From NCBI GenBank assembly GCA_002711995.1, contig PASN01000014.1:310001-374000 (forward strand): a DNA stretch of 64,000 nt. Direction: 5' to 3'. The stretch's first letter is position 1, and each line of letters starts with the position of its first letter. Below are positions 44,587 to 51,555 of this stretch, piece after piece. The DNA comes from Halobacteriovoraceae bacterium. Its GTDB lineage: Bacteria; Bdellovibrionota; Bacteriovoracia; Bacteriovoracales; Bacteriovoracaceae. The notes beneath the pieces are model-generated. The model was not told the origin of the DNA. It searched no databases and saw only the letters and a list, made by a program, of their open reading frames with translations. The position numbers were made by a program, and so were the translations under genes.

Positions 44587-44991
44587 TTACAAACTGGTCG
44601 TGGGCGGAGTAAAGTCTCTGTCCATGACCGTTTTTCTTTTGGCGTCCAATGCCTTTTGGGCGCTTGCATCACAAATTTTTTGAACCCTAGAGCTTAGTTG
44701 AGCAAAGGCCTGACTAGAAGTGGAAAGACCGTCTCTATCTTTGATGTATCTTTTCACTTTGCTTGCAACAACAAGGTTGTCTTCAACCTCAGGGTTCTCA
44801 ACATAAAAGCTAAAGTCCTTTCCCATAACTGTTTTTCTTCCTGCATTTTTAGCTCTTTCGATAGCTTGATCCAGGTTTTCACCAACATCTTTGTTAAGGG
44901 GAAGGAAAAAATTGGCGGAAGTTGAACAGCCATACTTTTCTTTTATGTACTTTTTAACCTTGCTTAGAACCAGTAAACTTTCTATGTGCAT
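44587..44991 (-). CDS. Bacterial histone doublet (two histone folds in one chain)
   Basis: This is a 134-residue protein. Residues 10-60 and 77-127 are two copies of a bacterial histone fold and align without gaps at an offset of 67 residues. Each has SKVKKYIKEK/SKVKRYIKDR (helix 1), STS (loop 1), a middle helix of about 20 residues, and RKTVMGKDF/RKTVMDRDF (loop 2 with the Lys-Thr and Asp of histones, then a short helix 3). From memory, these match the histones of Bdellovibrio (Bd0055 type). A doublet can fold as an intramolecular dimer, as in archaeal doublets. It is predicted to bind DNA. AAAGGA precedes the start. Confidence 0.9.
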   Translation of the reverse strand: MHIESLLVLSKVKKYIKEKYGCSTSANFFLPLNKDVGENLDQAIERAKNAGRKTVMGKDFSFYVENPEVEDNLVVASKVKRYIKDRDGLSTSSQAFAQLSSRVQKICDASAQKALDAKRKTVMDRDFTPPTTSL

Positions 44992-45110
44992 AATATAATC
45001 CTTTGTGTTTATTTTAATTCATAAATGTATCTTTATCTTCAAAGGATAAATAAAGTTTAAAACACAGTGCGTAAAGACACTCTTCTTAACTGGCTAAGCT
45101 TCGAATTGTA

Positions 45111-45139
45111 TTGATTTTTGCGGCCTAAAACGATAAAAC
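45111..45139 (+). promoter_or_regulatory. Putative promoter for the KS-Ole operon
   Basis: TTGATT and TAAAAC are separated by 17 bases, ending 25 bases before the ATG of the first gene. The -10 box is imperfect. The same gap drives the divergent histone gene. Confidence 0.4.
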
Positions 45140-45164
45140 ATTTGTTAAAAATTAAGAGGAAAAA

Positions 45165-46394
45165 ATGTCTAGAACGCGTATTGTCATAACTGGTATTGGT
45201 CTAACAGCACCCAATGGAAACAATCTTCAAGAGTTTAGAAACAGTCTTTTGGAAAAAAAGTCTGGCATAAAAATGAAAGATGTAAGGTACATGGGAGATT
45301 ATCCTGCAGGGCTTTGCGAGTTTGATGAAACAAAATATCAAAAGAAGAAGGCCAGAAGGCGAGGCACGAGAGCTGGCTCTATCGCTATTTACTGTGCAAA
45401 TGAAGCTTTAGTCGACTCCAAAGTGGATTTTGATTCGATGGACAAGTCTAGAGTTGGTGTCTTTCTTGGCATTACTGAACATGGAAATGTTGAGACGGAA
45501 GAAGAAATCTATCAACTTCATCAGAACAATTTAAATGTGGACCTATGGTCCCATCACCATAACCCAAGAACAGTTTCCAATTCCCCTGCAGGGGAAGTGA
45601 ATCTAAATTTGAAAATTACTGGACCACATTTCACAATTGGATCTGCTTGCGCAGGTGGAAACATGGGCCTTATTCATGGCGCTCAACAGCTTATGCTTGG
45701 AGAAGTGGATTTTGCGTTTGCTGGTGGAGTGAGTGAAAGTGCTCAAACATTTGGTATCTTTGCGGCATTTAAGGCGCAAGGGGCCCTTGCTGTAAATGAG
45801 GATCCAACTAAGGCCTCAAGACCTATGGATAGGGATAGAAATGGAATCGTTATTAGTGAAGGCGGTTGTGTTTACACTTTAGAAAGGCTTGAAGACGCTC
45901 AAAAAAGAGGCGCAAAAATATATGGTGAACTCGTAGGCTATGCTTATAACACCGATGCTACTGACTTTGTTTTGCCTAATACTGAAAGACAAGTTGAGTG
46001 TATGGAGATGGCCCTAAAGAAGGCCCAGATTGATAAGGGATCAGTAAATATCGTAAACATGCACGCGACTGGCACAAAGGCCGGAGACATAAACGAGGCT
46101 TTGGCCGTGAAGACGATGTTTGATGACTGTGAGAACACATATGTGAACTTTACTAAGGGACATATTGGTCATGCGATGGGAGCGGCCGGAGCGCTTGAGC
46201 TTGCAGGCAACCTGCCAAGCTTCGACGATCATATGGTTCATCCCGGTATGAACCTGGAAAATATGGATCCTGAGTGCGCCATGAGAAACCTTGTGGGCGA
46301 CAAACCTGTCGAGCTTGAAAAAGTTGACACAATTCTAAATAACTCTTTTGGCATGCTTGGTATCAACTCAAGTGTGATCATTAAAAAATATTGA
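45165..46394 (+). CDS. Beta-ketoacyl-ACP synthase (FabF-like)
   Basis: This 409-residue condensing enzyme has a complete triad: Cys162 (GSACAGGNMG), His300 (NMHATGT) and His336 (KGHIGHAMGAAG), with Lys331. Because Cys is present it is an active ketosynthase and not a chain-length factor. It would extend an acyl chain by two carbons from malonyl-ACP. It heads a tight operon with an ACP (15-base gap), a CrtI-like flavoprotein and OleA-D. Dedicated chain building for the Ole pathway is inferred. It is not in a housekeeping fab context. Confidence 0.93.
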   Translation: MSRTRIVITGIGLTAPNGNNLQEFRNSLLEKKSGIKMKDVRYMGDYPAGLCEFDETKYQKKKARRRGTRAGSIAIYCANEALVDSKVDFDSMDKSRVGVFLGITEHGNVETEEEIYQLHQNNLNVDLWSHHHNPRTVSNSPAGEVNLNLKITGPHFTIGSACAGGNMGLIHGAQQLMLGEVDFAFAGGVSESAQTFGIFAAFKAQGALAVNEDPTKASRPMDRDRNGIVISEGGCVYTLERLEDAQKRGAKIYGELVGYAYNTDATDFVLPNTERQVECMEMALKKAQIDKGSVNIVNMHATGTKAGDINEALAVKTMFDDCENTYVNFTKGHIGHAMGAAGALELAGNLPSFDDHMVHPGMNLENMDPECAMRNLVGDKPVELEKVDTILNNSFGMLGINSSVIIKKY

Positions 46395-46409
46395 AAAAGG
46401 AAAATTTAA

Positions 46410-46652
46410 ATGACGGCTGAAGAAGTAAAACAAGTTGTTTTGGATATTATCTCTGACGTGGCTCCAGATGAAGAAGTTTCTGACATTAATTCTGCAGAGA
46501 GCTTGCGTGACCAATTGGATCTAGACTCTATGGATTTTCTGGACATCGTAATGGAGCTTAGAAAAAGACATTCTGTTGAGGTTCCTTCTGAGGACTACCC
46601 AAGACTTGCAACTCTTGACTCTTGTGTAGAATACCTTACTCCAAAAATGTAA
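46410..46652 (+). CDS. Acyl carrier protein
   Basis: This is an 80-residue acidic protein with the phosphopantetheine site DLDSMDFLD (Ser40) and the typical four-helix ACP pattern. The DSMD form differs from the usual DSLD of housekeeping AcpP, which suggests a specialised carrier. It lies 15 bases after the ketosynthase gene and three bases before the flavoprotein gene. Confidence 0.93.
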   Translation: MTAEEVKQVVLDIISDVAPDEEVSDINSAESLRDQLDLDSMDFLDIVMELRKRHSVEVPSEDYPRLATLDSCVEYLTPKM

Positions 46653-46655
46653 CAA

Positions 46656-48047
46656 ATGAATTATGACGCTATAGTCATTGGGGCCGGCATGTCCGGCCTT
46701 GCAGCAGGGATCCGATTGGCCATGTTTGGCAAAAAGGTCTGTGTGCTTGAGAAGCACACAATTGCCGGTGGCCTCAACTCTTATTACCAAAGAAGAATTA
46801 AAGAAACGAAAGAGATTGCACAGTTTGATGTGGGATTGCACGCTCTTACAAACTTTGCGACTAAAGGTGAAAGAGGCCGACCTCTAACGAAGATGCTGAA
46901 GCAGTTGCGAATCCCTTATGGAGATTTAAATCTTTGTCCTCAAAGTTATTCAGTAATTGATTTTCCAGATAAAAAACTGCGTTTTACAAATGACTTCGAA
47001 TTTTTAAGAAATGAAGTTCATGAAAAGTTCCCCCATCAAATTGATGCCTTTAACAAACTTGTAGAAAAGGTTGTGGCGTTCGACGAGCTTGATCTTAATG
47101 CAGGATACATGTCTTCTAGAGAGGTTTTAGGGAATTATTTATCGGACGCTCTTTTAATTGAAATGATTCTTGCACCGCTTTTAATATACGGAAGTGCGTG
47201 GGAAAAGGACATGGACTTTAACCAGTTTGTGATCATGTTCAAGTCTATATACTTGGAAGGCTTTTCACGGCCAAAGGGTGGAGTGAGAACCATTATTGAT
47301 AAGCTCATTTCACGCTTTAAAGAGGAGGGCGGTGAGCTGAAGTTTCGTCATGGTGTTGAAGAAATTTTAACTAAGGACGGGAAGGCCATTGGTGTTCGAA
47401 CCACAAAGGGTGAAGAGCTGTTTTCCAGCAAGATATTCTCAAGCGCAGGCCTTCCTGAGACAATGGAGCTTGCCAAAAAAGATACCTCCCACCAAGTTGG
47501 GCAAATGACTTTTTTGGAGGCGATTTGTCTAACGAAAAGAGCGCCAACAAAAGAAGAATTTGAACCTACAATTGTTTTTTATAACAATAGCGAAAAGTAT
47601 CATTATGAGGGTGCAAAGGATTTTTTTGACACTAGAAGCGCTGTAGTTTGTTGTCCAAACAACTACGATCCTGAAGTAAAGGATGTCCACGGGTGCTTTC
47701 GAGTTACCTTTATGGCCAATTATGAAAAGTTTAAAGCTCTTGAACGCTCTGCTTACTTAGAAAAGAAAGAACAGGCCTATGAAGAGGCATTGAAGATAGT
47801 TAAGAGTATCTCGCCAAGTGTTGAGCTGGATGTAGTTTTAAAGGATGTTTTCACACCAACAACAGTTGAAAGATACACTTGGAAAAAAAGAGGAACCGTA
47901 TACGGAAGTCCAGACAAAATTAGAAATGGTAAAACTGATATTGATGGGCTTTATGTGATTGGAACCGACCAAGGCTTTCTAGGGATTGTAGGTGCTATAC
48001 TAAGCGGTATTAGCCTTGGCAATCTGTATGGGCTAATGGAGAGTTAA
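46656..48047 (+). CDS. CrtI-like FAD-dependent oxidoreductase (desaturase/isomerase type)
   Basis: The 463-residue protein starts with the dinucleotide-binding motif AIVIGAGMSGLAAGIRLAMF and LEKHTIAGGLNSYYQ, as in phytoene desaturase, retinol saturase and prolycopene isomerase-like proteins. The C-terminal IGTDQGFLGIVGAILSGISL is the second FAD-binding block of this family. A paralogue is encoded at 60491. No phytoene synthase is present in the window, so a carotenoid role is unlikely; action on an acyl chain is inferred. It sits between acp and oleA, and its last base is the first base of oleA. Confidence 0.85.
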   Translation: MNYDAIVIGAGMSGLAAGIRLAMFGKKVCVLEKHTIAGGLNSYYQRRIKETKEIAQFDVGLHALTNFATKGERGRPLTKMLKQLRIPYGDLNLCPQSYSVIDFPDKKLRFTNDFEFLRNEVHEKFPHQIDAFNKLVEKVVAFDELDLNAGYMSSREVLGNYLSDALLIEMILAPLLIYGSAWEKDMDFNQFVIMFKSIYLEGFSRPKGGVRTIIDKLISRFKEEGGELKFRHGVEEILTKDGKAIGVRTTKGEELFSSKIFSSAGLPETMELAKKDTSHQVGQMTFLEAICLTKRAPTKEEFEPTIVFYNNSEKYHYEGAKDFFDTRSAVVCCPNNYDPEVKDVHGCFRVTFMANYEKFKALERSAYLEKKEQAYEEALKIVKSISPSVELDVVLKDVFTPTTVERYTWKKRGTVYGSPDKIRNGKTDIDGLYVIGTDQGFLGIVGAILSGISLGNLYGLMES

Positions 48048-49066
48048 TGAAATTTAAGAATGTATATATTGAATCCATGGCCTACCATAGGCCGGATGTG
48101 TTTCTTTCAAGTGAGGAGCTTGAGAAGAAGTTGTCTCCTGTCTATGAGCGACTAAGGCTTCCGTTTGGAAGGTTGGAGTTGTCCACGGGGATAAAGTCTA
48201 GAGGTTATTTTGAGAACTTAAGGCCTAGTGGAATATCTATTGCCGCTGGAAAGAAGGCCTTGTCTCAATCTAAGATATCAAAAGAAAATATTGATTTGTT
48301 AATTCACAGCTCTGTTTGCCGCGACTTTTTAGAACCGTCAACCGCCAGTGTTGTCCATGCTGGACTTGAGCTTAAAAGTGGTTGTTCCAGCTTTGATCTC
48401 TCCAATGCCTGCTTGGGCTTTTTGGATGCTATGAAGGTCGCAGCTGCCCAAATTGATTCAGGTCTTATCAACAACGCTTTGATTGTTACTGGAGAGAATT
48501 CAAGGCCTTTAATTGAAAAAACAATTGAATTCTTAAATGGGAATAAAGGTCTAACTAGAAAAAGTATAAAGAAATACTTTGCAAATCTGACCATTGGTTC
48601 TGCTGGCGTGGCCTTTGTCATGACATCCAATCCAGAGAATGCAATTGGCCGTTTTGTGGGTGTGGAAAATTTAAGCGATACAAGTGCCAGCGAATTATGC
48701 CAAGGTGATGGGAACACCAATGAGTTGATGATGGAAACTGATTCTGAAGAGTTGTTGAAGGCTGGCATAGACTTGGCAAAAAACTGCTTTCAGAAGTTTA
48801 AAGATAATATTCTTTCAGATATTGATCACGTTGTAGGGCACCAAGTTGGTGTTGCTCATAGAAATCTATTGATGAAAACCTTAGAGATTGAATCTATCAG
48901 AGATCATGTTTGCTACGATAGGTTCGGAAATACCGGCTCAGCAGCATGTCCCTTAACAATGGCGCTGGCCTTTGAGAATAATCAAATTAAGAGTGGAGAG
49001 AAGGTGGCGATGCTTGGTATAGGCTCAGGCCTTCACACTAATATGGCAGGTGTTCAGTGGCTGTGA
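48047..49066 (+). CDS. oleA: OleA, acyl-CoA/ACP head-to-head condensing thiolase
   Basis: This is a 339-residue FabH-fold enzyme. SSVCRDFLEPSTASVVHAGL carries the OleA-specific Glu96 (the second-base Glu), and LSNACLGFLDAMK carries the nucleophile Cys122. DHVVGHQVGVAHRN and GNTGSAACPL complete the active site. OleA condenses two acyl thioesters in a non-decarboxylative Claisen reaction to a 2-alkyl-3-ketoacid. The EP and ACLGF motifs separate it from FabH. Its stop codon lies past the start of oleB, so they are coupled. Confidence 0.93.
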   Translation: MKFKNVYIESMAYHRPDVFLSSEELEKKLSPVYERLRLPFGRLELSTGIKSRGYFENLRPSGISIAAGKKALSQSKISKENIDLLIHSSVCRDFLEPSTASVVHAGLELKSGCSSFDLSNACLGFLDAMKVAAAQIDSGLINNALIVTGENSRPLIEKTIEFLNGNKGLTRKSIKKYFANLTIGSAGVAFVMTSNPENAIGRFVGVENLSDTSASELCQGDGNTNELMMETDSEELLKAGIDLAKNCFQKFKDNILSDIDHVVGHQVGVAHRNLLMKTLEIESIRDHVCYDRFGNTGSAACPLTMALAFENNQIKSGEKVAMLGIGSGLHTNMAGVQWL

Positions 49067-49929
49067 AAAGTGGAATTGAAGAAATTAAAGCTCTTTATCC
49101 TTTTAAATCAAATTATTTAGATGTTGGTGCTGGGCAGATGCACTTTGTTGATGAAGGGGTTGGAAATCCAATCCTGATGGTTCACGGGAACCCAACTTGG
49201 TCCTTTTACTATAGAAACCTTGCCAAAGAATTTTGCGCCACCAATAGGGTTGTGGTGCCTGACCATCTAGGATGTGGTCTATCTGATGTTCCTTCAGATT
49301 ATGAATACACTTTAGAAAATAGAATTAAAGATTTAACCACATTGGTGAAGTTTCTAGATTTAAAAAATATAACTTTGGTCGTTCACGATTGGGGTGGGGC
49401 GATTGGAATGGGATTTGCCACTCGCTACCCAGAGTTAATTGACAGGGTTGTAATTTTAAACACTGCCGCTTTTAGAAGTGAGCGTATCCCTTTTAGAATT
49501 TCTCTTTGCAAAAATAAGTTGTTTGGCGATTTTCTTGTGCGCTATTTTAACGGTTTTGCCTGGCCGGCTACTTTCATGACCACAAAGAAAAAGCTTTCAA
49601 CAAAAATAAAGAAAGGCTATCTCATGCCTTACCAAGATCCAAAGCATCGAAAAGCAGTAAGCGAGTTTGTAAGAGATATCCCTATGAACGAGAAACATCG
49701 CTCTTACGAAACATTGAAGGAAATTGAAGAAAAACTTCCAAGACTTGGTTGTCCAAAGCTTATTTTATGGGGCGGAAGAGATTTTTGTTTTAATGACGAA
49801 TTTTTCGCCAGATGGAAGAATATCTACCCTGACAGCTTTCATAAATATTATAAAGACGCGGGTCACTACATACTAGAGGATGAAGGCGAGGATGTTAAAA
49901 AGCAGATTGAAGCCTTCATGGAGAGCTAG
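49057..49929 (+). CDS. oleB: OleB, beta-lactone decarboxylase (alpha/beta hydrolase)
   Basis: The 290-residue protein is of the haloalkane-dehalogenase type. VHGNPTWSFYYR (43-54), nucleophile Asp111 in VVHDWGGAIG, and DAGHYILEDEG for the His fit OleB. OleB removes CO2 from the cis-beta-lactone made by OleC to give a cis-olefin. The GTG at 49057 overlaps the end of oleA by ten bases; a second GTG at 49063 is possible. It is separate from oleC here, whereas some bacteria encode an OleBC fusion. Identity rests on the motifs plus position. Confidence 0.9.
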   Translation: MAVKSGIEEIKALYPFKSNYLDVGAGQMHFVDEGVGNPILMVHGNPTWSFYYRNLAKEFCATNRVVVPDHLGCGLSDVPSDYEYTLENRIKDLTTLVKFLDLKNITLVVHDWGGAIGMGFATRYPELIDRVVILNTAAFRSERIPFRISLCKNKLFGDFLVRYFNGFAWPATFMTTKKKLSTKIKKGYLMPYQDPKHRKAVSEFVRDIPMNEKHRSYETLKEIEEKLPRLGCPKLILWGGRDFCFNDEFFARWKNIYPDSFHKYYKDAGHYILEDEGEDVKKQIEAFMES

Positions 49930-51555
49930 ATGAATGTTGCCGATCAAATAACCGAAGTTGCCAAATTATTTCCCCACAAAAGGTCCGTGGTAGCAACAGA
50001 TGGCAAAGACAGGTTTGGCAAGTATAGATATGTTCATTACACCTTTGAACAGCTTGAAAGTAAGATTAATCAGTTCTCCAATGCCCTGGTAGACGTTGGT
50101 GTTAAGAAAGGTGACAAGGCGCTACTCTTTGTAAAACCTTGCCTTGATTTTAGCGCCTTGGTTTTCGCCCTTTTTAAGGTGGGCGCAGTTCCTGTTCTCA
50201 TAGATCCAGGTATGGGAAGAAAACCTTTTCTCCGCGCGCTTGAGAGCTGTGGGCCTAGAATTATGATTGGCATACCGAAGGCCCATGTTCTAAGAAGGTT
50301 GTTTCCAAAAGTTTTTAAAAGTGTTGAAATTTATTTGAATTATGGAAATAAATCTTTCCTTGGCGCCAAGTCTATTTTAGCACTCTCATCAAACAAGAGT
50401 CAGAGCTTCGAAAGTGTTGAGGTGGAAGCTAATGAACTGGGTGCCATTCTGTTCACATCGGGTGGGACTGGAAGACCAAAAGGTGTTGAGTATACCCACG
50501 ACATTTTTATTTCCCAAACGAAGGCCTTGAAGGAAGAGTTTAAGCTCACTAAAGAAGACGTTGATTGTCCTGGTTTTCCATTGTTTGCGATGTTTACTTT
50601 AAGTATGGGGATGACAAGCTGTATCCCGGATATGGACCCTTCTAGGCCATCAGAGGCATGTCCCAAGTCGCTTGAGAAGATTATTAAGGATCAGTCTGTG
50701 ACTTTTGCTGCTGGCTCACCTGCTATTTGGAAAAACTTGGGTGAGTATTGCGTTAGTGAAAATATTTTACTTCCGACATTGAGATCTCTTGTTATGTTTG
50801 GAGCTCCTATTTCTATTGAGCTGCATGAACTCTTCTCGAAGGCATTGCCAAATGGAGATACCTTCACGCCATATGGAGCTACGGAGTCACTTCCGGTGGC
50901 GAACGCCATGGGCTCGGCCGTTCTGGAGAGAAAGGAACAAATTAGAAGCGGAAAAGGTGTGTATCTCGGAAGACCTCTAAGTTCTGTGGATGTTAAGGTT
51001 ATTGCGGATGTTGAAGAAGCGATTGAAAGTATAAGCGATATCAAGGAGCTTCCCAATAATGAGATTGGGGAATTCCTTGTTAAGTCGAGAACCACCACTA
51101 AGGGATATTACCAGATGCCTGAGAAAACGAAGCTTGCAAAAGTTTATGATGGCGAGAGCGTATGGCATAGAATGGGTGATGTTGGCCATAAGGATGAAGA
51201 TGGAAACCTGTGGTTTTTAGGTCGTAAAGCTCATAAAATAGTTCATGAGGAGAAGTCTCATTACAGCATCTCCATTGAGTCAATTTTCAATCAACACCCT
51301 GAAGTCGAAAAAAGCGCTCTAATTAGCAAAGAGGTCCCTTCAATCGCAATTCAAAGAAAAGACGCGAGCATATCTTTAACTAAGGCGCAGGCCAATCTCT
51401 TTCTAAACGAGCTTTTAGAAATTGGTAAGAAGTATGGCCACACTAAAGACTTTGAACAGTTCTACCTTTGTTCAAAATTTCCTGTGGACGTGAGACACAA
51501 CATTAAGATCGACAGAAAACGTCTTGGTGAAATGAAACTTGAAAGGTTAAGGTGA
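49930..51555 (+). CDS. oleC: OleC, beta-lactone synthetase (AMP-dependent ligase family)
   Basis: This is a 541-residue member of the acyl-CoA-synthetase/luciferase superfamily. ILFTSGGTGRPKGVEYTHD is the adenylate P-loop, FTPYGATESLPVAN the second motif, and WHRMGDVGHKDEDGNLWFLG the C-terminal hinge motif. OleC activates a 2-alkyl-3-hydroxyacid with ATP and closes the beta-lactone ring. The start codon follows the oleB stop with no gap. The VRHNIKIDRKRL end matches full-length family members. Confidence 0.92.
   Translation: MNVADQITEVAKLFPHKRSVVATDGKDRFGKYRYVHYTFEQLESKINQFSNALVDVGVKKGDKALLFVKPCLDFSALVFALFKVGAVPVLIDPGMGRKPFLRALESCGPRIMIGIPKAHVLRRLFPKVFKSVEIYLNYGNKSFLGAKSILALSSNKSQSFESVEVEANELGAILFTSGGTGRPKGVEYTHDIFISQTKALKEEFKLTKEDVDCPGFPLFAMFTLSMGMTSCIPDMDPSRPSEACPKSLEKIIKDQSVTFAAGSPAIWKNLGEYCVSENILLPTLRSLVMFGAPISIELHELFSKALPNGDTFTPYGATESLPVANAMGSAVLERKEQIRSGKGVYLGRPLSSVDVKVIADVEEAIESISDIKELPNNEIGEFLVKSRTTTKGYYQMPEKTKLAKVYDGESVWHRMGDVGHKDEDGNLWFLGRKAHKIVHEEKSHYSISIESIFNQHPEVEKSALISKEVPSIAIQRKDASISLTKAQANLFLNELLEIGKKYGHTKDFEQFYLCSKFPVDVRHNIKIDRKRLGEMKLERLR

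Follow-up and report, generated by a model that had tools for sequence, protein, structure and literature searches.

The histone doublet gene and its locus

The analyzed window, a stretch of 64,000 nucleotides from a Halobacteriovoraceae bacterium, carries a short gene that encodes two histone folds in one chain (hereafter the doublet), and a divergent lipid operon begins on the other side of a short intergenic region (Table 1). The operon is composed of genes for a beta-ketoacyl synthase (KAS), ACP, FAD oxidoreductase, KASIII, alpha/beta hydrolase and AMP-ligase, all in one direction (window 45165-51555). The last three stand in the same order as the OleA-OleB-OleC olefin genes, which we take as a resemblance. 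The gene occupies the coordinates given in the sequence-only reading, which named no strand, and lies on the minus strand. The doublet protein is basic, with a pI of 9.3. Comparison with the gene of a congener gave a dN of 0.09 against a saturated dS of about 2.4, and thus the gene is under purifying selection.

Table 1. Features of the doublet locus, with positions counted from the first letter of the window
Feature	Position	Strand	Remarks
Histone doublet gene P0001	44587..44991	minus	ATG start, 134 aa
N-terminal histone fold	44809..44982	minus	residues 4-61; helices 9-20, 26-49, 57-59
C-terminal histone fold	44608..44781	minus	residues 71-128; helices 76-87, 93-116, 123-125
Linker joining both folds	44782..44808	minus	residues 62-70
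Loop-2 RKTVMGKDF, half 1	44812..44838	minus	residues 52-60
Loop-2 RKTVMDRDF, half 2	44611..44637	minus	residues 119-127
Likely ribosome-binding site AAAGGA	44999..45004	minus	seven bases before start; from sequence
Divergent intergenic region between doublet and KAS operon, 173 bp	44992..45164		
KAS (beta-ketoacyl synthase), first gene of the divergent lipid operon	45165..46394	plus	conserved doublet neighbour

Internal repeat and predicted fold

The sequence-only reading had described two halves that align without a gap at an offset of 67 residues. This alignment is borne out, as residues 4-61 and 71-128 are identical at 26 of 58 ungapped positions with a BLOSUM62 score of 123. A chance repeat is ruled out, since the maximum score in 3,000 shuffles was 43 (Gumbel P about 2e-15). 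At the DNA level the halves share 53% identity, which indicates that the repeat is old. Every motif quoted in that reading (SKVK.., STS and RKTVM..) is present, and so is the Pro-Leu-Asn that it placed in helix 2 of half 1 (FFLPLN). Most N-halves from the Bacteriovoracaceae possess the same residues (FFEPLN), and they are thus an inherited feature.

The match to Pfam PF00808 (CBFD_NFYB_HMF) is barely above the cut-off (21.9 vs 21.4 bits), and that to the NCBIfam model 'archaea_histone' falls below its cut-off. Sequence searches of the PDB with the separate halves matched HBb/Bd0055 for the N-half (8cmp and 8fvx, E 4e-7) and HLp for the C-half (9qt0, E 4e-5), so both halves match bacterial histones and neither an unrelated helical family. 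The profile of the doublet family reached HBb at E 3e-19. An AlphaFold2 model, built from an alignment of 34 doublets, shows a compact intramolecular pseudodimer (pLDDT 91.5, pTM 0.85). Helix 2 comprises 24 residues in both halves and helix 3 is truncated (57-59 and 123-125), as in alpha3 histones. The top Foldseek matches of the model are histone dimers or pseudodimers, including 1f1e, single chains or chimeras of H2A-H2B, viral doublets, SOS and 1wwi. The DNA-bound HBb chains 9f0e_A and 9ezz_A overlay one half at 0.7 Å with 38-47% identity. Model, Foldseek and PDB matches together support the earlier claim that a single chain holds two full histone folds, and the proposed intramolecular dimer agrees with the confidence of the model and the dimeric nature of its structural matches, as a prediction. 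The doublet halves group in trees with HBb and ZZ histones, apart from FtF histones. The fold of the doublet and its assignment to the HBb-type alpha3 histones are very likely.

Comparison with known histones

HBb/Bd0055 of Bdellovibrio bacteriovorus (8cmp, 9ezz, 9f0e, 8fvx, 8fw7) has the same fold with truncated helix 3, and shares with the doublet the S9-K10 motif, RKTxxxD, the DNA-contact lysines and the basic charge. However, HBb possesses one fold per chain and forms a symmetric homodimer, whereas two diverged folds lie in one chain of the doublet. Among the traits of the alpha3 bacterial dimers, the helix 3 of 3-4 residues, the shortened helix 2 and a sequence closer to the bacterial-dimer and ZZ histones than to FtF were found in the doublet; the homodimer of single-fold chains was not.

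Pseudodimers of the DUF1931 type (Aq_328, 1R4V; Thermus thermophilus, 1WWI) also have two histone folds per bacterial chain, and 1wwi is a Foldseek match of the doublet (TM 0.59). In the portions of the literature available to us, the described bacterial pseudodimers are DUF1931 proteins, reported to be without DNA-binding residues (PMC11390915, PMC12701072, PMC13088155). The doublet keeps these residues in both halves, where they are invariant, and is thus not a DUF1931 pseudodimer; none of the 34 doublet family members scanned matched PF09123, and membership is ruled out. The archaeal doublets (Methanopyrus HMk, 1F1E; HstA) have an intramolecular histone pair in common with it (1f1e, TM 0.63). 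Unlike the bacterial doublet they are of nucleosomal type with longer helices 2 and 3; neither these helices nor a nucleosomal sequence was found in the window protein, and the family profile gave no significant match to 1f1e (E 0.72). ZZ histones contain a histone half of similar type, but the doublet lacks the zinc finger. Membership in that family is ruled out, as no cysteine-pair motif is present and the two folds take up the 134 aa. FtF histones such as HLp (9qt0) belong to the same alpha3 superfamily, yet form a separate clade in the tree. All five FtF sequences compared possess the Arg and Asn pair of the tetramer. At the end of helix 2, Ala occupies the Asn position in both halves of the window doublet, and doublets in general do not conserve an Asn there; at the Arg position the window doublet has Arg/Lys and most others have His/Asn. 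FtF membership is ruled out by the missing pair.

Conservation of DNA-contact residues

In the HBb dimer, loop 1 from one chain and loop 2 from its partner together make up each outer DNA site, and N22 is the most-contacted residue (PMC11317129). Conservation was tabulated in HBb numbering for both halves of 23 representative doublets. S9, K10, K12, K16, K52 and T53, together with the clamp R51/D58, are 100% conserved in both halves. In doublet numbering, the invariant loop-2 residues are R52, K53, T54, V55, M56, D59 and F60 in half 1, and R119, K120, T121, D124, R125 and D126 in half 2. Position N22 is Asn or Ser across the doublets, with Ser in both halves of the window protein; R57 is Arg or, in half 1, Lys, which is the residue in the window protein; T8 is not kept and is Leu/Ala in the window protein. 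The proteins from all 47 doublet loci are basic (pI 8.4-9.8).

Distribution and origin

A total of 40 doublets were found in GTDB r220, 33 of them in or near the Bacteriovoracaceae (L033-L065; the label of some of these records is just Proteobacteria, Bdellovibrio or Halobacteriovorax) and seven in Gammaproteobacteria (L066-L071 and L081). The scan was seeded with short peptides of the window protein, and more distant doublets could therefore be missed. A full-length doublet is encoded in 46 of the 129 Bacteriovoracaceae genomes. The doublet is real and conserved.

The N-halves and C-halves form separate clades within each lineage. Gammaproteobacterial halves are 63-71% identical to one another and have a one-residue insertion in loop 1 in common. 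They resemble some singlets, several from planctomycetes (65-70% identity), more than they do the Bacteriovoracaceae halves (43-48%); the predicted fold of a gammaproteobacterial doublet is the same (pLDDT 91.7). With 58-59 alignment columns in either tree, a single fusion origin was rejected on a tree of 55 rows (AU p 0.0004), and the joint clades, tested singly on a tree of 109 rows, were not rejected (p 0.76 and 0.52). Two separate fusions in the two lineages are more likely on these sequences, though not proven. A mobile or phage origin was rejected, with no match found in phages or plasmids.

Among 20 genomes of the gammaproteobacterial family, seven encode doublets and another seven have histones with a single fold. 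In one further genome, G165, the doublet is frameshifted. A small deletion within the first RKTVM motif splits one gammaproteobacterial doublet (L128:795-1170), which is either a pseudogene or an assembly error. The seven gammaproteobacterial doublets of the GTDB scan adjoin a YajQ-like gene.

Association with the lipid operon

The operon is widespread in the family, with KAS found in 106 and KASIII in 103 of the 129 Bacteriovoracaceae genomes. In all 42 testable genomes the doublet and KAS are divergent neighbours, across a gap of 164-551 bp that is mostly about 185 bp, while the other flank of the doublet is variable. Many doublet-less relatives, in sister genera, have an HTH protein of about 220 aa directly upstream of KAS (49/49 testable), with weak Pfam matches to TrmB/ArsR (L141, L142, L143, L146, L149, L150, L151). 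The doublet occurs in 46 of the 129 genomes, the HTH protein in 55, and both together in none. On the KAS tree this exchange amounts to about one event plus losses. The exclusion is therefore not many independent observations, and was rejected as independent statistical evidence. Several genomes, G002 among them, have kept the operon with neither gene. An OPT transporter, or one further transporter gene, lies directly before KAS in three loci with neither neighbour (L144, L147, L148), the last of which comes from the window's own genus. In G089, a Bacteriovoracaceae genome of 1.6 Mb, the doublet (L155:3083-3472) lies at a different locus, with a small ORF and a hemF-like gene as neighbours, and no KAS gene was found.

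Proposed function and alternatives

The doublet is probably a single-chain, obligately asymmetric version of the DNA-bending dimer of HBb, the alpha3 'bacterial dimer'. Its halves are predicted to fold against each other like the two chains of HBb. Mapped from the HBb-DNA structures, each outer DNA site would combine loop 1 of one half with loop 2 of the other, namely K13/T24/S25/A26 with K120/T121/R125, and K80/T91/S92/S93 with K53/T54/K58. Further contacts may come from the starts of helix 1 (S10-K11 and S77-K78). HBb binds DNA without sequence specificity and bends it, in simulations by about 84 degrees across 36 bp (PMC11317129). By analogy, the doublet would bind the backbone of duplex DNA at the minor groove, likewise without specificity, and bending by it is probable. 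The fusion would render the dimer obligate and asymmetric, with K58 in half 1 versus R125 in half 2 and an altered helix 2 in half 1. A nucleoid role beside the three HU proteins of the window's genome may be inferred. Against this explanation of the doublet stand the changes of N22 to Ser, T8 to Leu/Ala and, in half 1, R57 to Lys. It also counts against it that the doublet is dispensable in some relatives, as the gene is absent there at the same site, and that a protein acting on the whole nucleoid would not usually stay linked to a single operon.

That linkage leads to the serious rival, or added role, in which the main target of the doublet is the promoter region between the divergent genes, from where it would control the KAS operon, and itself, in place of the HTH protein. 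Conserved divergent pairs often consist of a regulator and its target. The invariable adjacency to KAS beside a variable other flank, the HTH protein at the same place in doublet-less relatives and the failure of the two to occur together all favour such control, which could come with or without a wider chromatin role. However, the exclusion reflects about one exchange, the operon persists elsewhere with neither gene, and the doublet of G089 counts against a purely local role. No operator common to the few divergent regions was evident by eye, with the KAS start located in 10 of 22 loci. DNA binding by HBb is not sequence-specific (PMC11317129). We regard local regulation as possible and tentative. 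The bolder version, that a histone doublet took the place of the HTH protein as dedicated controller of the lipid operon and that the double form arose at least twice in bacteria, is rather doubtful. It is unlikely that doublets swap folds or form tetramers which wrap or bridge DNA like FtF histones; the related HLp does tetramerise and wraps about 60 bp of DNA (PMC12701072), but the doublet lacks the FtF tetramer pair and its single chain already folds with high confidence in the model. It is very unlikely that the doublet has lost its action on DNA and serves as a partner protein with histone folds, a possibility raised for DUF1931 doublets with their missing DNA-binding residues and unknown roles (PMC13088155, PMC12701072); every core DNA-contact residue is invariant in the two halves, and no doublet scanned matches PF09123.

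Bacterial singlets and doublets are already known as size classes (PMC10627809). No description of an HBb-type doublet was found in the literature searched, as far as its text was accessible; supplements of surveys may list such sequences uncommented. The bacterial double histones of the 2025-2026 papers, of the DUF1931 type, were reported without DNA-binding residues (PMC12701072, PMC13088155). Since the present family keeps them, it allows a direct test of histone fusion, for which the solved HBb dimer is a natural control. The doublet bears on the path from single histones to pairs that are obligate and asymmetric, of which archaeal doublets, viral doublets and the heterodimers of eukaryotes are examples. 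As it stands at a fixed position next to one operon, local regulation by a histone in bacteria can be put to the test, and its sequence suggests that it may offer bacteria a new way to bend or regulate DNA.

Other histones of the genome

No HBb-like singlet was found in the window's genome. Two further histones are encoded there. One (L002:1234-1692) combines an N-terminal cysteine-rich, zinc-finger-like domain with a C-terminal histone fold and is ZZ-histone-like. The other (L032:1297-1623) is a weak FtF-like histone with a longer loop 1.
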